57,437 nt of DNA from Chlorobiaceae bacterium (GCA_013334755.1 JAAXWX010000007.1:1-57437); one strand, 5' to 3'; positions 35,358 through 49,113 are shown, counted from the first letter of the stretch. The notes: a model not told the origin generated them from the letters alone. Translations and numbers: made by a program.

Positions 35358-35529
35358 AATTTGCTCCTTTACAGTTAATACAATATTATATTATGAGTTA
35401 CGTTTTTTTAATCATCAAGGAAAGGGTGAAATAGATACGATAGCGAAAAAGCGTTAAACTGCAGGTTCTGCTACCATAAAAAATACACACCAAGCTTCAA
35501 ATTCCGGAACATTTTTTTACAAGAAAACA
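35358..35529 (-). promoter_or_regulatory. Probable promoter region of dsrC-led operon
   Basis: The only gap above 105 bases within the dsr cluster proper. It holds an A/T-rich partial palindrome just upstream of dsrC (about 35378-35398, AATACAATATTATATTA) and no T-tracted hairpin. The region is likely to contain a dsr promoter so that dsrC-led transcripts can exceed dsrN transcripts. No known operator was recognised. Confidence 0.45.
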
Positions 35530-39751: not shown

Positions 39752-42619
39752 TCAGGGTTTTGAAATATAGAAGGTCTTTTCATCAGGCCTGAACGGACGA
39801 TTCATCCAGAGAGGACGGCGAAGACCGCCAGGCCCCGGCGCAGGCCTGGTCATAGCAAGCCACTCCTTGTAAATCTGGTGTGAACGATCTGTATCGACAA
39901 AAACATCACCGTAACGATCCTCCTCATGCGCTTTTTCGATACGCACCTTCTGGTGCCAGCAGTGCATGCCACTGATAGGATCAGGGTGAACCGGGAACGT
40001 GATGTTCTGGTGCACACCTCCGTCAGACCAGAAAATTCTCGATGAATCGGGATCGCTGCTCTCGTAGGGTTCAATGCTCTCATCAACACGCATTTTCCAT
40101 TTACCGCTTCCTTCATGCTTGATCTGCACCCTGTTGGTCGACCAACGGTTAGCCGCCGGATCCTGTTCACGACGCCATCGACCGATATGATGTGAGCAGG
40201 CCAGCACTCCGGGCCGTATGCCTTCAGTTACCCATGCCCGGTTTATGAAAAAGCCGATATCAGTATTGACCCTGATGAGATCTCCATCTTCAAAACCGAG
40301 ACTCTTTGCATCTGCAGCATTGATCCAGACTGGATTACGATGCGCAATCTCGGCAAGCCATTTAGCATTGCCGGAACGGGAGTGAATCAGGACAGGAAGA
40401 CGAAAAGTAGGAACAAGCACAAATTCCCCTTTACTCCGGTTCATGATCTCCTGGTGCACGTGACTTTTGATGTAGCCGGGAAGTCTATACTCAGGCCACT
40501 TCCAGTCGACCATCGTCCGGGAATAAAGTTCCTGTTTGCGCGATGGAGTAGGAAAGCCGATTCGATTGGCGCCTTTAACCTGAACACCGACTGATTTTCC
40601 GTTTTTGGTTATAAGGCCTGTCTCAGGCTGCACGGTTGACCCTTGCATATCAGCCTCCGACAAAGTTCTTTCATTAACCTTGTATACGTTGCTTTCAACT
40701 TCGTATGCACCGTATTTCTGCATGTATTCCAATGCTGAAATTCCCTCTTTGGCCGCCGTTTCCGGCAGACCGGGAACACGCTCAAAAATATAGCGGTAAT
40801 ACTCCTCAATCGTGATTTTTTCACCAGGTCGGTATGGCGACATGCAATACTGCTTTATACCGAGGCTTCCATCAGGATCAATCCGCCAGGTAAGCTCAAT
40901 CCAGAACTCATCCTCTTCCCACACCTCGCCGGTATTTGCCTGCCAGGTGTATTCCACCGGATGCCCCATCTTTGCGTGAGCAACACGAAGAACCGGCTGA
41001 CGGAAAGCAATCCACTTGCCAGCATGGGTTTCGTAACTGATAATATCATGTCGTTCAGCAGAATGACCCATCGGCAGGACATAGTCGGCAAAATAGGCTG
41101 TTTCACTCCACGTAGGAGTTAGTGCGGCATGCAAACCGATTTTTGATTCATCTTCCAGCGCCTCAATCCAAGAGAACCCATCAGGATAGGTCCAGACGGG
41201 ATTGAACACCCTGGTAAAATAGACATCAAGTTTGCCTCGACCCTCCTTAAGAAAATGGGGCAGCAGGAAGCTCATTTCAAAATGAGCCAGAGGATACTCA
41301 TCAGGCAAGTGAAGTGTATTCCAGAACGTCTGTAGTTTTGGCTTGGCATGAACATCAGGGTGGAACTTGTTCCAGGCACTTGGTGACGTACCGCCGGGAG
41401 TACCAACACTGCCTGTCAAAACATTGAGAAAATGGAGCGTACGCGATACTTCCCATCCGCCAAGATTTCCACTGCTGGCACTTCGCCATACATGTGTTGC
41501 AAAATTGGTCCCGGCCTCGCCTATTTTGCGGGCAACTTCGATAATCGTTCCAGCCTTGACACCACTCTCTTTTTCAGCAAAATCGGGAGTGTATGAGCTA
41601 TACTCTTTTTTGAGTGCCTCAATGAACTCTTCAAAGGTTACAGGAGTGTCTTGATAATCCTGCTGCAGATACTCTTTCCAGTTCACCCAATTTTCAAGGT
41701 AGTCACGGTTGTAGAGCCCTTCGTCAAGAATCACTTTTGCCATGGCAAGCAGTACCGCTGACTCACTGCCCGGATAACTTGGCATCCAGTAGTCCGACAT
41801 GCTTGCTGTGTTTGAAAGACGGGGATCGAGTACGGCAAGTTTTGCCCCTTTCATTCTGGCCTCAACAATGCGCTGGGCATGAGGATTGAAATAGTGACCC
41901 GACTCAAGATGGGCACTTACCAGAAGCATGAATTTAGCATTGGTGTAGTCGGGCGACGGGCGATCCAGTCCTTCCCAGATAGCATATCCAAAACGTGCAC
42001 CTGATGAACAAATATTGGTGTGGCTGTTATGACCATCTACATTCCATGCCCTGAGCACCCACTCCATGAACCCTTCATGGCCGGGACGACCGACATGGTA
42101 GGAAATTTCGTTATTACGACCCTCCTGTATGGCCTTGCGCATTCTTCCCGCAATGTCATCCAGCACACTATCCCAGCTTACCCGATCCCATTTGCCACCA
42201 CCTCTTTTTCCCGATCGTTTCATTGGATAAAGCACCCTGTCAGTATCCTCAATCTGGTTGAGGGTTGCAGGACCTTTGGCACAGTTTCTTCCACGACTTG
42301 CCGGATGGTATGGATTCCCGACCAGCTTGCGCATCGTCATGCTTTCTTTATCAACATAGGCAAGAAGTCCGCAACCAGCCTCACAGTTAAAACAGGCTGT
42401 TGGAATCAGCATATACTCTTTCGACTTGCGCTCAGGCCAGCTTTTCGAATCATATTCCACCCAATTGTCCCACTGATCGGGAGGCGGACAATTAACCTGT
42501 GCGCCATCTACAGCAGCACTTTTCGTTGCAGGGCCACTCCCCTCAGCATGAAGATCAGCGATCAGATGCAATTTCTCTGCTATCGTTTCTATAACCGTTG
42601 GTTTATGGGTATAACTCAT
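39752..42619 (-). CDS. soeA: Molybdopterin oxidoreductase, SoeA/polysulfide-reductase-like (PSRLC3-type) catalytic subunit
   Basis: 955-residue DMSO-reductase-family protein. N-terminal [4Fe-4S] cysteines lie in ACFNCEAGCG and GRNCAKGPATLNQ. The likely molybdenum ligand is the Cys of NICSSGARFG. The C-terminal dinucleotide-binding domain begins around FVLVPTFRLPVLIHSRSGNAKW. No twin-arginine signal is seen, so it should act in the cytoplasm, as SoeA does for oxidation of sulfite to sulfate. GSB enzymes of this type have been called polysulfide reductase-like complex 3. It follows its fused B/C subunit by 18 bases. Polysulfide or thiosulfate reductase activity cannot be excluded from sequence alone. 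Confidence 0.82.
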   Translation of the reverse strand: MSYTHKPTVIETIAEKLHLIADLHAEGSGPATKSAAVDGAQVNCPPPDQWDNWVEYDSKSWPERKSKEYMLIPTACFNCEAGCGLLAYVDKESMTMRKLVGNPYHPASRGRNCAKGPATLNQIEDTDRVLYPMKRSGKRGGGKWDRVSWDSVLDDIAGRMRKAIQEGRNNEISYHVGRPGHEGFMEWVLRAWNVDGHNSHTNICSSGARFGYAIWEGLDRPSPDYTNAKFMLLVSAHLESGHYFNPHAQRIVEARMKGAKLAVLDPRLSNTASMSDYWMPSYPGSESAVLLAMAKVILDEGLYNRDYLENWVNWKEYLQQDYQDTPVTFEEFIEALKKEYSSYTPDFAEKESGVKAGTIIEVARKIGEAGTNFATHVWRSASSGNLGGWEVSRTLHFLNVLTGSVGTPGGTSPSAWNKFHPDVHAKPKLQTFWNTLHLPDEYPLAHFEMSFLLPHFLKEGRGKLDVYFTRVFNPVWTYPDGFSWIEALEDESKIGLHAALTPTWSETAYFADYVLPMGHSAERHDIISYETHAGKWIAFRQPVLRVAHAKMGHPVEYTWQANTGEVWEEDEFWIELTWRIDPDGSLGIKQYCMSPYRPGEKITIEEYYRYIFERVPGLPETAAKEGISALEYMQKYGAYEVESNVYKVNERTLSEADMQGSTVQPETGLITKNGKSVGVQVKGANRIGFPTPSRKQELYSRTMVDWKWPEYRLPGYIKSHVHQEIMNRSKGEFVLVPTFRLPVLIHSRSGNAKWLAEIAHRNPVWINAADAKSLGFEDGDLIRVNTDIGFFINRAWVTEGIRPGVLACSHHIGRWRREQDPAANRWSTNRVQIKHEGSGKWKMRVDESIEPYESSDPDSSRIFWSDGGVHQNITFPVHPDPISGMHCWHQKVRIEKAHEEDRYGDVFVDTDRSHQIYKEWLAMTRPAPGPGGLRRPLWMNRPFRPDEKTFYISKP

Positions 42620-42637: not shown

Positions 42638-44188
42638 TTAACTTAACGGAACTGTTTGCGGCGCATGAATCCAGACTTTTTCGGTGTAGAAGACACCACA
42701 AAGTCCAAAAATGGCGGCTACGGCAAGCATTAAAGGAGAGGAAAGAGCCATACACAACAACAGTGGTAGCACATTTCCCGCAATGAAACTGCCAAACCAG
42801 AACTGCTTCTTCAGAGATCCATGCAGAATGACCTCAGCAGCGCGTTCCGCATACTTTGAGGGATGCCTGCCATAGAGTTCAGAAAGCATGACAAGGATGT
42901 GGAGTATAAAACCGCCCGCAAGCGCTGGCCTTAATATTTCAAAAAGGTCAGGAGCACTGGAGGTCAGCACGCCAAGAACAAGCATCGCAGAACCTCCTGC
43001 AAGCAGCGAGTTCAGAAACATGTGCAACAGAAGCATCGGGCTTTGCCAGAAGTCTCTCCCCTTTGCTGACCCAAAAAGGAATGCCGTATAGATGGCCGTC
43101 AACAGTGCAAAAAGCGATCCACACCACAACGATATTGTTTCGAGAAGAGGCAACTGAAAATATTTTGCTACTCCCCACAAAGCAAGAAAAGCACCAAATC
43201 CGGCAATCGTCAAACCGCCCTTTACAAGCCATGAACTGAATTGCGGGCGGAGCATCACCGAGGAAAAGCGCTCTGGACGATCAAGATCCTTGACAAGAAA
43301 TCCTCCCGTAAGAGCAAGAAAAAGAAGAGATGTCGCCCATATGGCCCATTGCAGAGAATCTGACAGGGAGTATACCAAGAGCGTTTGCAACACAAACATC
43401 AGTAAAAACAATCCAGAAGCAACAGCCTTCGACCAGACATATGCGGGAACTTCCCAGCCCCAGACAACACCCTTTGACGGAGTATCATACACCTTTCTGG
43501 CCTTTGGTTTTCCATCGATTCCAGATGATGGAAGCAATTTTTTTGCAGGTTTGACAAAATGCTTACCTGCAAAATGGCCAACTCCGCGAGACTGCTCACT
43601 CCAGAGATAACCGTTGACTTCCGAAACCTCAAGTGGATCCAGTGAAGCCCCATCTCCATTGATATAATAAAGCTTGGGAGATGTGCCTTTTTCCGGCTTT
43701 CGCACCATAGTCTGCTCTTTCGCCACAAGCAGAGCTATTGGACTTCTGGGATCGTCAAGATCACCGGCAACAATCGCCTGCTGCGGACAAATCGAAACAC
43801 AGGCAGGCTTGAGTCCAACCTCTTTGCGATGAGCGCAATAATTACATTTCGCAGAGGTGTGAGTCTCTGGATCCATATAGAGCGCGCCGTAAGGACATGC
43901 CTGGGAACAGGCTTTACAGCCGATACAGCGACGCTGGTCAAAATCAACAATCCCATCATCACGTCGGTGCAGAGCCTCTACCGGACAAATATCAACACAG
44001 GGTGGTTCAGCGCAATGATTGCAGCGGAGAACAGTAAAATATCTTCTGCTGTCAGGAAAAGTACCCTTTTCAACATATTTAACCCAGGTACGATTTACAC
44101 CGAGAGGCACCTGGTTTTCGGATTTGCATGCTACCGTGCACGCATGACATCCGATACATTTCCGGGCATCAATAACAAAACCGTAATT
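42638..44188 (-). CDS. Fused iron-sulfur (B) and NrfD-like membrane (C) subunit of the Soe/Psr-like complex
   Basis: Residues about 1-200 (starting MNYGFVIDARKCIGCHACT at ATG 44188) are a PsrB/NrfC-type ferredoxin with four clusters: CIGCHACTVAC, CNHCAEPPCVDICP, CIGCKACSQACP and CNYCAHR...CVSICP. A linker of about 60 residues follows. Residues about 265-515 are an NrfD/PsrC-type anchor of about eight helices. It has no export signal at the N-terminus, so the ferredoxin part is cytoplasmic like the A subunit. In other bacteria (SoeB, SoeC) these are separate proteins. It precedes soeA by 18 bases and is led by a region holding the shared 20-bp element. Confidence 0.88.
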   Translation of the reverse strand, partial: NYGFVIDARKCIGCHACTVACKSENQVPLGVNRTWVKYVEKGTFPDSRRYFTVLRCNHCAEPPCVDICPVEALHRRDDGIVDFDQRRCIGCKACSQACPYGALYMDPETHTSAKCNYCAHRKEVGLKPACVSICPQQAIVAGDLDDPRSPIALLVAKEQTMVRKPEKGTSPKLYYINGDGASLDPLEVSEVNGYLWSEQSRGVGHFAGKHFVKPAKKLLPSSGIDGKPKARKVYDTPSKGVVWGWEVPAYVWSKAVASGLFLLMFVLQTLLVYSLSDSLQWAIWATSLLFLALTGGFLVKDLDRPERFSSVMLRPQFSSWLVKGGLTIAGFGAFLALWGVAKYFQLPLLETISLWCGSLFALLTAIYTAFLFGSAKGRDFWQSPMLLLHMFLNSLLAGGSAMLVLGVLTSSAPDLFEILRPALAGGFILHILVMLSELYGRHPSKYAERAAEVILHGSLKKQFWFGSFIAGNVLPLLLCMALSSPLMLAVAAIFGLCGVFYTEKVWIHAPQTVPLS

Positions 44189-44332
44189 CATAGAGTGGTT
44201 TGCTCTAAATAATTGCAAGACACTTGACCGGAAAAATCAGACCAAGCATGACTTCATAAAATATAATCGGGAACAAAGCGCAGACGAAAGGAAAATATAA
44301 TATTCTAATGGGTCATAAGATAAATATTATAT

Positions 44333-44352
44333 AACCATATAACTAAAAGGTT
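44333..44352. promoter_or_regulatory. Shared 20-bp element, copy 1 (upstream of soe-like operon)
   Basis: AACC-ATATAACTAAAA-GGTT, an imperfect inverted repeat centred about 155 bases upstream of the fused soeBC-like gene. Its sequence matches copies at 46090-46109 and 47561-47580, including the central TAYARCTAWA. The surrounding 225-base gap (44189-44443) is A/T-rich and has no other recognised feature. Confidence 0.55.
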
Positions 44353-44443
44353 GTTATAAATATTCAAAAAATATTGAAATTTTCCCAAAAATATCATCTA
44401 TAAAAAAGTCATCTGGTCGATTTTTGATGACAGCGGTGCGTAA

Positions 44444-45892
44444 CTACAGTGAATGCGAATAATTAAGTGACCAGTTGACCTGGCCGTGACTGATGAGCAG
44501 ACCGTCAGCATTGGTCGCTGATACCTTCGGGACAAAAACAAGAGCCGCAGCAACTGTTGATTTATCAGTCAACTTGTACCCAAAACCTCCGGTATAATGA
44601 TTTTCTGCAACCGCCGGAAACAGGGGATTAAGATAGCTGTCAGGGACGGGATTGTTTGAAAAACTTGCTCCTGCACGAAGTGCAAGCCGCTCTGAAGCCT
44701 TATACTCCACACCAACAGAATAAACCCACTGGTCTTCCCAGTTCTGGGTCATATCGACGTCAAGTGTCTGCCCCGCGAACGGCCCGTTAGTCACTGAATT
44801 ATCTGCAGTAAAGGTTGTGCTGAATTTGCTCATTGCCCATGCCCAGTCAAGATATTTGAGATCACCCACAATCATCCAGCGCTCTGCTGGATAGAGGGCA
44901 AAACCTGCTGCCCAGGTTTCAGGCCAGCCGAAATTTTTGACCTTCATGGTACCACTGACCGATACCGGATTTGCTTGACCGAATGCTGGCCCCTGGCCTG
45001 AAAAAGAGAGCACCGCTTTGGAGGTTTCAAGATCAGAAAGCCATGTCCGGGAGTGATAACTGCCCCCGACGGTCACCATTTTACTGAATTTGTGTGTAAA
45101 TCCCGTCTTGAAACCTGTCCCATACCCGATTGCTTCACCAATAAATGAACTGCCATTCGAAAAATTGTAACGGACATGGTTGATATCGGTAATGGCGCCC
45201 GAACTGATGAATGAACCAAGTGTATTAAACATGGAACCACTGACCGAGCCTCCTTTTCCCGCCATGCCCATGCCGGCAAAATGAGCCCCATCCATATCCA
45301 TCTGAAGATCCATGCTTCCCCAGAGCAGATCAAATGAGATACCAATTGTTGTATTTTCAGTGAGGTTATAGGCAAGAGGCAACATCAGACGACCTATGCC
45401 AACTTCCGATCGAATATCCTCGCCACTCAAGGGAACCACTTTGCTCATGTCCACAGGCATTCCATACCTGGACATAGGCATTCCGTAGTGGAACAAGGCG
45501 GAATTCTTGCCATACTCCGTACCCATCCCACCCTGGGCAAGCACAGCCAAACCCCAGGCAAACTTTCCATCCTTTCTCATATAAGAAACCGAGGGCATAT
45601 AATAGGCCGTCCCCGCCGACTTGACCTCATTACCATTGTAATCGACAGCTACATCGGGATGAAGCCCTCTGATACCAACTCCGAGCTCTTCCTCTCCCTC
45701 TTTCATCATGCCAAGTGTGGCTGGATTATTCATCACGGCGGAGTTGCCGGTGTCAAAGGCCATGCTGGTTCCACCAAGTGAATGGGATTTTGCACCATAC
45801 CCTTCGAGGTTCATGCCATTTGTGGCAAAAGCTGTAGAAGAACCCGAGAGCACGATCAACAGAGAGACGCAAAAAACTGATTTACTGATCAT
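44444..45892 (-). CDS. FadL/OMPP1/TodX-type outer-membrane protein
   Basis: 482 residues. Signal peptide MISKSVFCVSLLIVLSGSSTAFA, then the FadL-type N-terminal hatch NGMNLEGYGAKSHSLGGTS and MNNPATLG, followed by a long beta-barrel and an aromatic/His-rich end. FadL proteins carry hydrophobic molecules across the outer membrane through a lateral opening. Its place between sqr and the soe-like operon suggests a role with hydrophobic sulfur species, such as polysulfide or elemental sulfur export or uptake, rather than fatty acids. That is inference from position. It has its own upstream region containing one copy of the shared element. Confidence 0.85.
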   Translation of the reverse strand: MISKSVFCVSLLIVLSGSSTAFATNGMNLEGYGAKSHSLGGTSMAFDTGNSAVMNNPATLGMMKEGEEELGVGIRGLHPDVAVDYNGNEVKSAGTAYYMPSVSYMRKDGKFAWGLAVLAQGGMGTEYGKNSALFHYGMPMSRYGMPVDMSKVVPLSGEDIRSEVGIGRLMLPLAYNLTENTTIGISFDLLWGSMDLQMDMDGAHFAGMGMAGKGGSVSGSMFNTLGSFISSGAITDINHVRYNFSNGSSFIGEAIGYGTGFKTGFTHKFSKMVTVGGSYHSRTWLSDLETSKAVLSFSGQGPAFGQANPVSVSGTMKVKNFGWPETWAAGFALYPAERWMIVGDLKYLDWAWAMSKFSTTFTADNSVTNGPFAGQTLDVDMTQNWEDQWVYSVGVEYKASERLALRAGASFSNNPVPDSYLNPLFPAVAENHYTGGFGYKLTDKSTVAAALVFVPKVSATNADGLLISHGQVNWSLNYSHSL

Positions 45893-46089
45893 ATTTGTTG
45901 ATAGATTTAACAGATAATTAAAATTACCGGCTCAACTTCGACAGACACATTAAACCGGCACCATACCCATAGAAATGACAAAAAATCACTATCGACCTGC
46001 TGAAATCAAGTCGCAATAATACAGTAAACGATTCGATATCTGGAAGAAAACAGTGTGAGTCACGAACACAGAATCAATTCTAACCGCAT

Positions 46090-46109
46090 AACCTTACAAC
46101 TATACGGTT
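46090..46109. promoter_or_regulatory. Shared 20-bp element, copy 2 (upstream of FadL-type gene)
   Basis: AACC-TTACAACTATAC-GGTT, same length and spacer as copy 1, centred about 207 bases upstream of the FadL-type start and 20 bases beyond the sqr stop codon. It is flanked on the left by another AACC (46082-46085). A role in transcription of the FadL-type gene is inferred. Confidence 0.55.
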
Positions 46110-46119
46110 AGACTATTTT

Positions 46120-47346
46120 TCAGCCAACTTCCTTTCCGGCCATAACAAGGGTTGGTGGCGCTCCAAGATGCCTTCCCGCAAGAAGTACATTCCAGTAAAG
46201 CCACTCAAAACCGAGTTTTCCCTTCCAGTTCATCTTCGTCTCTTTCAGAAGAGTGAATGGGCCAAGTTTAGGCATCGGGAATTTTCCTGGCAGGGGCTCA
46301 ATCTTGTAGTTAAAGTCTATAAGCGAAGAGCTGCCTTTGGAATAGACAATAAAACAGGTTGAGTGCCCGTCATAAATCTCTTCCGGCTTGACGCCATGAA
46401 TTTCAGCCATGATATTGAAAACCACGACATCAGCTTCATAATGGGCAACAGATCCCGCCTTCGAGGTAGGAACATTGGTGGCATCGCCGATGACATAGAC
46501 ACTCTCGTGCTTGAGAGCCTTGAGAGTGTTCTGGTGAGTAGGCACATAGCCAATGCCATCGTCAAGACCCGACTTGCTGATCACCTCATCGCCAATAGTA
46601 GTGGGAACAATGACCAGGGTGTCATAGTTTATCCTGTCACCTTTTACAGACTCGATATACCGCTCTTTTCCATTCACCGAACTGAGTTCGAAACTCGTGC
46701 TTATCTTGATGTTTTTGCTTTTTGCCGACTCAGTAAAGACTGCCGAGGCCTTTGGTTTCGTGAACGCTCCAGCCAAAGGCGTAACCAGTTCAATCTCAGT
46801 CTTCTCCCTTATACCTTTATTACGGCAATACCAGTCCGCCAAAAAGACAAACTCAATAGGAGCCACAGGGCATTTAAAGGGAAGCTCTGCAATATTCATG
46901 ACCAGTTTCCCGCCATTAAACTCTTTCAATCTCTGGCGAAGCTGTTCTGCGGCAGCTATCGTATAAAATGAGAACGCATTCTTCCCCCATGCATCCATGA
47001 GCCCGTCATTCTCTTCAGGAGCAATCTTGCATCCTGTGGCAATGATCAGAAAATCGTATGTAAACGTATGGTTTCTGGTCTTTACCTCCTTCTTGTCAGG
47101 AGTGACATGAGTTATCTCATCAATCACAAAATCCACACCGGGCAGAATGTACTTTTTCCTTGAGCGTGTAAGGGTTTTCGCCTTTTGAAGTCCAAACGGA
47201 ACAAAGAGCATGCCGGGCTGATAGATATGCTGGTTGTCACGATCAATCACCGTGATCTCCCATTCCTCTGGCAAATGCCTCCTCAAATTATTGGCAACAA
47301 TCGTCCCGCCAGTACCTGCACCTAATACGACTATCTTTTTAGACAT
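46120..47346 (-). CDS. sqr: Sulfide:quinone oxidoreductase family flavoprotein
   Basis: 408 residues. FAD motif VVLGAGTGGTIVANNL at the N-terminus, ATGCKIAP (C106), PFKCPVAP (C159) and HSTCFIVYSKG (C331) give three cysteines in places used by SQR enzymes for sulfide oxidation. VIGDATNVPTSKAG is the second FAD contact. The C-terminal 60 residues (PKLGPFTLLKETKMNWKGK) include an amphipathic membrane-binding part. Sulfide is oxidised to polysulfide or sulfur and electrons go to the quinone pool. The SQR subtype is not settled; the ATGC motif suggests a group other than the classical type I. It is first in the minus-strand sulfur island. Confidence 0.87.
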   Translation of the reverse strand: MSKKIVVLGAGTGGTIVANNLRRHLPEEWEITVIDRDNQHIYQPGMLFVPFGLQKAKTLTRSRKKYILPGVDFVIDEITHVTPDKKEVKTRNHTFTYDFLIIATGCKIAPEENDGLMDAWGKNAFSFYTIAAAEQLRQRLKEFNGGKLVMNIAELPFKCPVAPIEFVFLADWYCRNKGIREKTEIELVTPLAGAFTKPKASAVFTESAKSKNIKISTSFELSSVNGKERYIESVKGDRINYDTLVIVPTTIGDEVISKSGLDDGIGYVPTHQNTLKALKHESVYVIGDATNVPTSKAGSVAHYEADVVVFNIMAEIHGVKPEEIYDGHSTCFIVYSKGSSSLIDFNYKIEPLPGKFPMPKLGPFTLLKETKMNWKGKLGFEWLYWNVLLAGRHLGAPPTLVMAGKEVG

Positions 47347-47952
47347 TCTTGCCCCCTTATTTTAGAAATCAGTTGTAAAAAAAATTGAAGTAAAGAGAAA
47401 AAAACACCAAAGCAACGCACACATGCTGTTGCAGATGTTACGTATAGAACGGCACTTCAGTGAAGCACTATTCTGTTATTTAAGAAAGGCTTAGATGTCT
47501 CTTGGGTAACGGTCAATATATGCAGACCCTTTGCCGCACACGCTATCAGTCCTATAAGAAAACCATATAGCTATATAGCTTAACAATTGATAATATATAA
47601 AAAATCACGCTATAAAAACAAATGTTTTCTTCACCGAAAACCCTGATTAATTACAGTTTGAAAGAAATTCAACGCAGAGCTTTCACGCCCTATCACAGCC
47701 TGATGTCGCCCAACCAGTCGTTTGATATATCGAAGCTATCGAGCGCATTTCACGCGAAATGATGAGCATTGAGAGGCACTGATTCGGAAAACCAACACAT
47801 GAACTGAACACGTTCCGGGAGTTCACAATCTTGTAGCACTCCCTTAACAATTCCTCAACAGAACGAATAGTACTTTGTGTGGCGCATGAAGATATGCGAA
47901 AGAGTTCCGGGATTTTCATGAACACATCACACAAACCAATCATATATTTCTT
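47347..47952. other. Divergent intergenic region between sqr and porin
   Basis: About 600 bases. It holds copy 3 of the shared element (47561-47580) and an A/T-rich block around 47575-47640. The remainder has no recognisable gene: a minus-strand frame at 47683-48174 runs into the porin gene on the other strand and has no family match. Promoters for sqr (minus) and the porin (plus) must lie here. Confidence 0.5.
47561..47580. promoter_or_regulatory. Shared 20-bp element, copy 3 (upstream of sqr)
   Basis: AACC-ATATAGCTATAT-AGCT, the third copy of the element, centred about 225 bases upstream of the sqr start. Its right half departs from GGTT, but the central TATAGCTATA keeps the shared pattern and makes the site more palindromic inside. 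It lies about 370 bases upstream of the divergent porin. Confidence 0.5.
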
Positions 47953-49113
47953 ATGAGAAAAGTTGCAATGATAGTCGGTCTGGCTGCTGCCCTTGGGTTC
48001 AACAACGCACACGCCGTCGACCTGAACTGGAAAGGAGATATCCGATACCGTTACCAGTCTGACCTGACGGATTTCCCAACACTGAAGAATGAAAACAGTC
48101 GCGACCGGCATCGCGCCCGCGTGCGTCTCGGCGTCTATCCATGGATCAATGAAGAGCTTTCTGGCGGTGTTCAACTCTCAACCGGAAGTGCCAGCGAAAC
48201 GACCTCGCGCAATGAAACCCTTAACGGCATCTTCCTTGCTGACGCTGTTTACCTGAATGAATACTTTATCAATTATCACCCTACCGCCCTCAACGGAAAC
48301 GTCAATGTTGTCCTTGGCAAAAGAGCTGTTGCAAATTCGCTCATCGTTGTTAACGATCTCGTATGGGATAGCGATCTTACCTTTGAAGGTGCCACACTGC
48401 AGTACGGCAAAGATGAAGATGGAAAAGAAAAAGATTGTATCAATGCTGTTGTAGGATACTACGAACTGACTGAGTTCAATGGTATCCAGTCCAAACTCGC
48501 AACGCCAGCATCAGGCAGAGAACAGAATGCCTACCTTATTGCCGCCCAGGCAGCCTGCAGCGGTGAACTGAGTGATCTCAACTACAAACTCGGTGCGGGT
48601 TATTATAATTATGTAAACTTCAATTATCAGATTGCAGCTCCAAACAGCCCGGCACCTAACTATACCGGAAAAGATTTCAACATTGTCGAGATCTTCGGGA
48701 AAGTTGGCGGTCAGCTCACCGACACGCTTCCCTGGCAGATCAATGGTCAGTATGCGTTCAACACTGCTAAAAAATCCTCCAGCTATCCCGGTATCGACAA
48801 CTCAAAAAGGAATAGTTACCTCGTCGAAGCCAAAATCGGTGATGCCAAACAGGTTGGGCAGTGGTCACTTAATGCTGACTATGTGAGAATCGAACGCGAC
48901 GCCCTTACCGTTCTCACCGATTCAGACCGTAATATGGGAGCCGCCACTGACCTTAAAGGATTTAAAATCGGAGCGGCCTACCATCTGGTGCAGAATCTGA
49001 CACTCGGCGTAAACTATTTCAATTTCAAAACAATTGATGACAAGACAACAGCTGCTGATGAGTCAGCTCCAACAAGGCATATTTTCATGGCAGATGCTGT
49101 TGTCAAGTTCTAA
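47953..49113 (+). CDS. Outer-membrane porin (putative phosphate-linked)
   Basis: 386 residues. Signal peptide MRKVAMIVGLAAALGFNNAHA, then VDLNWKGDIRYRYQSDLTD and a 16- to 18-strand-type barrel with RHRARVRLGVYPWINEELSGG, ending ADAVVKF with a terminal Phe. It belongs to the broad 'putative porin' group of Bacteroidota/Chlorobiota. The pstS gene follows 140 bases downstream on the same strand, so it may be a phosphate-entry porin (inference). Its A/T-rich upstream region is shared with sqr. Confidence 0.8.
   Translation: MRKVAMIVGLAAALGFNNAHAVDLNWKGDIRYRYQSDLTDFPTLKNENSRDRHRARVRLGVYPWINEELSGGVQLSTGSASETTSRNETLNGIFLADAVYLNEYFINYHPTALNGNVNVVLGKRAVANSLIVVNDLVWDSDLTFEGATLQYGKDEDGKEKDCINAVVGYYELTEFNGIQSKLATPASGREQNAYLIAAQAACSGELSDLNYKLGAGYYNYVNFNYQIAAPNSPAPNYTGKDFNIVEIFGKVGGQLTDTLPWQINGQYAFNTAKKSSSYPGIDNSKRNSYLVEAKIGDAKQVGQWSLNADYVRIERDALTVLTDSDRNMGAATDLKGFKIGAAYHLVQNLTLGVNYFNFKTIDDKTTAADESAPTRHIFMADAVVKF

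Follow-up and report, generated by a model that had tools for sequence, protein, structure and literature searches.

A proposed palindromic operator at sulfur-oxidation genes of Chlorobiaceae and a candidate ArsR-family regulator

We analysed a stretch of 57,437 nucleotides from a Chlorobiaceae bacterium (GCA_013334755.1 JAAXWX010000007.1:1-57437), referred to here as the window, in which a 20-bp element occurs upstream of sqr, of a gene for a FadL-type outer-membrane protein, and of a soe-like operon. We conclude, with a probability of about 80%, that the three elements are operators of one regulon that takes in much of the dissimilatory sulfur oxidation of the Chlorobiaceae, for which we predict as regulator an ArsR/SmtB-family repressor of 129 residues whose gene lies elsewhere in the genome. 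The three sites hold up and greatly exceed what chance would yield. Computation established the site and its target genes, the occurrence of the site at the regulator's gene within and beyond the phylum, the co-occurrence of the regulator gene with dsr or sqr, and the protein fold. A candidate regulator can now be named for the sulfur-regulon operator; our searches of the open-access literature gave neither a regulator nor an operator of sulfur oxidation for green sulfur bacteria.

Three sites in the window

A preliminary description of this DNA had listed three 20-mers, and all of them were found with the same positions and ends:

44333-44352, minus strand: operator copy 5' of the soe-like operon, recovered by a dsrC-promoter matrix and by a motif from foreign ArsR promoters (both below)
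46090-46109, minus strand: operator copy 5' of the FadL-type gene, recovered by both matrices and lying within a hairpin
47561-47580, minus strand: operator copy 5' of sqr, the strongest of the three

On the plus strand they read AACCATATAACTAAAAGGTT (44333), AACCTTACAACTATACGGTT (46090) and AACCATATAGCTATATAGCT (47561). At 44333 a further dyad overlaps the first with a shift of 4-8 bp and stretches the site to about 44324-44356. All three copies agree at 13 of 20 positions, rather than at the roughly 14 described. Their distance from the genes had been put at about 150-225 bases, which holds for the copies at 46090 (198 bp) and 47561 (215 bp); the 44333 copy is 141 bp from its gene, counted from the ATG at 44191. 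The 47561 site is also 373 bp upstream of a divergent porin-like gene.

When up to three mismatches are allowed, the joint consensus matches the window at these three places only, where shuffling predicts 0.14 matches, and the 2.1-Mb genome at one further place. Because this consensus was derived from the sites themselves, we sought independent tests. The AACC-N12-GGTT frame was rejected as a definition of the motif since it is too loose, with four further copies in the window.

Independent test with dsrC promoters of relatives

The starting point was a search of 86 Chlorobiaceae genomes with the loose pattern, which matched the gap between dsrN and dsrC in several genomes, sometimes twice. 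A symmetric matrix was then built from nine dsrC-promoter sites, none of them from the window's genome. Over the 57-kb window, the top three independent matches of this matrix were at 47561 (27.0 bits), 44333 (21.7 bits) and 46090 (19.5 bits). The next independent match scored 10.4 bits, in keeping with the earlier statement that the other gaps hold no equally good copy.

In 1.16 Mb around the sqr and dsrA genes of relatives, the matrix gave 94 matches of at least 14 bits and 54 of at least 18 bits, nearly all of them intergenic, as against means of about 7 and less than 1 for 20 column-permuted matrices over the same DNA. This bears on whether the pattern is as frequent in coding or permuted background as in sulfur promoters, a possibility raised with the preliminary description; we found it to be rarer there. 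Alignment of the sites gave the consensus TAACTATATARYTATATAGTTA, a full palindrome with both halves conserved, and it is in this full palindrome that specificity resides. Adjacent matches were often offset by 8 bp, so the half-sites repeat every 8 bp. A scan of the 86 genomes with the first consensus and two mismatches had mixed true sites with coding matches, and we therefore switched to matrices and a sequence-only model.

Target genes across Chlorobiaceae

Targets were counted with the dsrC matrix as matches of at least 14 bits within 400 bp upstream, using distinct upstream regions. Sites were present 5' of soeBC in 16 of 19 upstreams, of fadL in 14 of 27, of sqr in 21 of 48, of dsrE2 in 11 of 23, and of dsrC in 37 of 52, the last count including the training promoters. 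None of 58 control upstreams of dsrL and dsrN had a site. The site is thus conserved upstream of soeBC, sqr, fadL and dsrC orthologues, and this conservation supports well the earlier proposal that the sites are operators of a sulfur-gene regulon; the response to sulfur is what we infer. Follow-up loci for fadL, soxY, sqrD and fcc had been chosen via motif matches and form a biased sample, so fadL was re-sampled by protein to give the count above.

A sequence-only model made from 45 foreign sites was run over the 86 whole genomes and unexplained matches were followed up. The matches were mostly at sulfur genes. They add soxY, fccAB, a second SQR of 484 aa and a second psr/soeBC, together with rhodanese, NDH2-like and porin-like genes, names that we assigned by reading the start of each protein. 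For the window's own genome, the model places sites before the second SQR (C88:95049, 25.7 bits) and before soxY (C61:556, 16.7 bits). Matches with E<0.1 occurred in 46 of 66 genomes with dsr or sqr versus 2 of 20 without (Fisher p=3e-6), a value that is indicative only because the genomes are related by descent.

No site was found 5' of dsrC, dsrN or dsrE2 in the window, where the best scores were 3.2, -0.1 and 2.2 bits. With no site at the dsrC and dsrE2 promoters here, dsr is apparently outside the set of direct targets in this genome, although it belongs to that set in many relatives. The dsrC promoter of this genome lies at 35358-35529; most other Chlorobiaceae checked carry one or two copies at theirs. 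Control of dsr seems to differ in the window's clade.

A candidate regulator and its own promoter

The search for a regulator covered the HxlR, Rrf2 and ArsR families and was not exhaustive. HxlR was proposed from an ACTAT..ATAGT box that we took to be typical of that family, and was then excluded when no protein scored above the cut-off in 17 genomes. Rrf2 was uninformative, since genomes carry it whether or not they have the motif. An ArsR group with ELCVCDL (arsenic/metal type) was not found in the motif-bearing genomes G002 and G025.

The candidate is a 129-residue ArsR-family protein encoded in the window's own genome at C2:48813-49190, minus strand. A match at the ArsR start in G034, at first taken as chance, became the lead when orthologous promoters were compared. 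Orthologues are present in 62 of 66 genomes with dsr or sqr versus 10 of 20 with neither; the protein is absent only from ten genomes without dsrA and this sqr, and from four drafts of 77-86% completeness. Its promoter contains a conserved block in most genomes, TTTGAAT and then ..TTAATAGCTATATA, about 40-90 bp ahead of the start; this block is scored as an operator (25.2 bits in G034, 23.0 in G071 and 18.9 in G015). At a threshold of at least 10 bits, 39 of 70 ArsR promoters have a site as compared with 9 of 235 control upstreams.

As read from the sequence, arsR at four loci (L387, L400, L401 and L411) follows an open reading frame (ORF) like those for extracytoplasmic function (ECF) sigma factors and precedes Hsp20 and DnaK genes; an anti-sigma-like ORF also precedes it in L400 and L411. 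The ECF-sigma/arsR/Hsp20/DnaK arrangement is retained in Chloroherpetonaceae.

Independent test in other phyla

Homologues of 38-54% identity were obtained from Acidobacteriota, Balneolota, Bacteroidota, Verrucomicrobiota, Cyanobacteria and others, and one of 64% identity from Chloroherpetonaceae. The regions upstream of arsR reached at least 12 bits in 16 of 55 non-Chlorobiaceae cases, versus 2 of 787 other segments of the same loci. At six loci (L413, L421, L423, L433, L434 and L450) arsR is divergent from genes that we read as rhodanese, TauE/YeeE or persulfide-dioxygenase-like, and the operator lies between them.

We also ran a de novo palindromic expectation-maximization search on 33 foreign ArsR upstreams that included no Chlorobiota or cyanobacterial sequence. 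It returned ATATTACTATATAGTAATAT with a log-likelihood ratio of 182, versus 32-40 for shuffles and 48 for other locus regions. The five best matches of this foreign motif in the window, at 44329, 47557, 44337, 47565 and 46094, are the three sites and nothing else. Because a motif from foreign ArsR promoters recovers the sites, these are tied to this ArsR subfamily. The best register is 4 bp off the frame used above since dyads overlap in the 8-bp repeat. Several cyanobacterial homologues (L419-L466) have another conserved element, TTACTTTATTGTTATAAACAGA-like and about 83 bp upstream of the start of homology, which is possibly a diverged operator.

Other explanations of the sites

An AT-rich motif picked by eye, with a loose AACC-N12-GGTT frame that is common, would suit a chance similarity of AT-rich intergenic DNA singled out post hoc. 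However, two matrices made without window sequence place the three sites first and the permuted and shuffled controls fail, so that we count this explanation as already refuted and hardly credible.

The sites could also be sulfur-regulon operators read by a different protein, be it one of the two Rrf2 proteins or a second ArsR, with the matches at the ArsR promoter reflecting mere membership of the regulon. Two Rrf2 proteins are present in nearly every genome checked, a regulator of another family such as Crp, TetR, LysR or MarR would lie beyond the three families searched, and the site at the ArsR promoter is weak in some genomes. Against this, the same operator is present at the genes of this protein's homologues in other phyla, the motif from those promoters alone recovers the window sites, Rrf2 does not track motif content and HxlR is missing. 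We regard a different regulator as quite unlikely.

A third explanation makes the elements parts of the core promoter (an AT-rich extended -10 or an UP element), or else has them recognized by a dedicated sigma factor. The right half does contain TATATA, which in some sqr promoters is preceded at 18 bp by TTGACA; the arsR promoter has TTTGAA-17-TATATA, and genes for an ECF sigma and an anti-sigma factor precede arsR. But the element is a full palindrome conserved in both halves, it is confined to sulfur genes and arsR, and most targets show no fixed spacing to a -35, such a spacing being seen for a fraction of sites only. A sigma-70 promoter scan gave about as many matches as in shuffles. We regard this explanation as very improbable. 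An RNA element was also considered and gave no Rfam match.

The copy at 46090 raises a separate question. It lies 11 bp past the sqr stop codon within a 34-nt hairpin (46079-46112, minus strand) reported by a terminator scan, and might thus be solely a terminator of sqr transcription with no role as a fadL operator. The stem has 15 pairs, of which 4 are GC, and the T-tract that follows (ATTGATTCTG) is poor. Operator palindromes likewise fold into hairpins, the element is present at fadL orthologues elsewhere (14 of 27), and this copy was recovered by two independent matrices. Termination as its only function is unlikely; the hairpin may act as sqr terminator and fadL operator together.

The predicted repressor and its known relatives

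Membership of the ArsR/SmtB family is indicated by NF033788 (83 bits, cut-off 55) and by PF01022, also above its cut-off. In the AF2 model (pLDDT 93) the protein forms a winged helix whose alpha5 is long, and its Foldseek neighbours, Rv0081, NolR, CadC, BigR, HlyU, SqrR, SmtB and YgaV, place it in the ArsR fold. A palindromic operator, often at the regulator's own gene, is a further feature of the family, and at the level of sequence the candidate shares it (the promoter counts above). Cys102 in alpha5 is invariant (37 of 37 homologues), which is consistent with sulfane-sulfur sensing, and many foreign homologues add Cys106. Within Chlorobiaceae, Cys47 occurs in all 70 proteins of the set and Cys89 in 68.

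The preliminary description had set the element apart from the ATTC-N8-GAAT box of BigR and SqrR. The sites do read TAACTATATARYTATATAGTTA, yet an ArsR-type protein is still the most likely regulator, from a different subfamily. The candidate is an ArsR and may work like SqrR, even though it departs from the SqrR/BigR features tested, namely cysteine position, operator and the BigR model (NF040642, 44 bits against a cut-off of 155).

SqrR, the persulfide sensor of Rhodobacter capsulatus (PDB 6o8k-6o8o), has C41 and C107 bridged by sulfane sulfur (PMC9995734). The candidate resembles it in the ArsR winged helix, in sequence (E 6e-8), in the alpha5 cysteine and in its predicted control of sqr and other sulfide genes. 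It differs in having Arg44 at the C41 position with a cysteine three residues on, in its operator, in a regulon that includes dsr, sox, fcc, soe and fadL, and in phylum. BigR of Xylella shares the fold; its operator is different and the candidate falls below its model's cut-off. Rhodanese, TauE and persulfide-dioxygenase-like genes, which lie beside the candidate's foreign relatives, are the same kind of cargo as that of the bigR operon. In Hyphomicrobium denitrificans, SoxR and sHdrR are ArsR-type, sulfane-sulfur-responsive repressors of a set of sulfur-oxidation genes (PMC10451225, PMC12423496). The type of control predicted here and the kind of gene are alike; the two repressors lie beside their targets in an alphaproteobacterium, whereas the candidate is remote and its predicted targets are spread over the genome. 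An ArsR-type protein next to sqr in the cyanobacterium Geitlerinema has been proposed as the sqr regulator (PMC5061849). The candidate has cyanobacterial homologues of about 45-54% identity, but those fetched are without a good operator copy, and no sqr lay within 2.5 kb at the loci inspected. In Thermus, TTHA1953 regulates sulfur oxidation (PMC10318464) and is similarly one repressor for a sulfur-oxidation gene set, but with the CsoR fold.

Several observations weigh against assigning the sites to this protein. At its own promoter the site scores a weak 10.3 bits in the genome of the window, and the closest relatives, G058, G068 and G079 among them, do not have it. In Chlorobiaceae arsR is not adjacent to sulfur genes, and 27 of 48 sqr upstreams have no site of at least 14 bits. 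The search for regulators covered three families, HxlR, Rrf2 and ArsR. The C41/C107-type cysteine pair is lacking, with Arg44 at the Cys41 position, and in G014 (L315) Cys47 is replaced by Ala. Because Cys47 is three residues from Arg44 and Cys102 is invariant, a different cysteine pair is possible. DNA binding, the sign of regulation, the effector and the cysteine chemistry are what we infer.

Proposed mechanism

On the reading that we favour, a dimer of the ArsR protein, perhaps two side by side on half-sites 8 bp apart, would bind TAACTATATARYTATATAGTTA. The TTGACA and TTTGAA spacings to TATATA given above imply that the operator would cover the spacer and the -10 region at the regulator's gene and at some of the sqr genes; at the other targets the operator has no fixed position. 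Sulfide or thiosulfate would supply sulfane sulfur (polysulfide, persulfide), which would modify or bridge Cys102 of alpha5, in Chlorobiaceae with Cys47 and/or Cys89. The repressor would then leave the DNA and sqr, soe, fadL, sox and fcc would be switched on, as would dsr in many species.

It is fairly probable, in our view, that phototrophic sulfur oxidation in green sulfur bacteria (sqr, the second sqr, sox, fcc, soe/psr and dsr) has a single ArsR-type sensor as its master switch, that this sensor has an operator class to itself, and that it was recruited from an older role in persulfide detoxification still seen in other phyla. If so, the FadL-type outer-membrane proteins, which recur in the regulon, would be part of sulfur uptake or export. 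The proposal yields a short testable list: a single protein and a single operator, with several promoters in each genome, and some species of the family can be cultivated. It links FadL-type and porin genes that have not been studied to sulfur metabolism and gives a widespread ArsR subfamily an operator class.

Genes around the sites

The genes next to the three sites are as follows:

39752-42619, minus strand: soeA-like molybdopterin subunit, second gene of the soe-like operon
42638-44218, minus strand: soeBC/psrBC-like fusion of a 4Fe-4S protein and NrfD, first gene of the soe-like operon; the ATG is probably at 44191
44444-45892, minus strand: FadL/TodX-type outer-membrane protein, a target by the orthologue count above
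46120-47346, minus strand: sqr, type III sulfide:quinone reductase (NF049943, 644 bits, cut-off 525)
47953-49113, plus strand: porin-like gene, divergent from sqr and a possible second target of the 47561 site

The porin-like gene had no family match. The NCBIfam model that matches SQR is named "type III sulfide quinone reductase, selenoprotein subtype"; the gene is open, with no in-frame stop. The FadL gene lies between sqr and soe in the window. In the relative G058, which is without a FadL match, soeBC directly follows sqr (locus L094). In other genomes the FadL-type genes are located elsewhere, and the operator is often retained.

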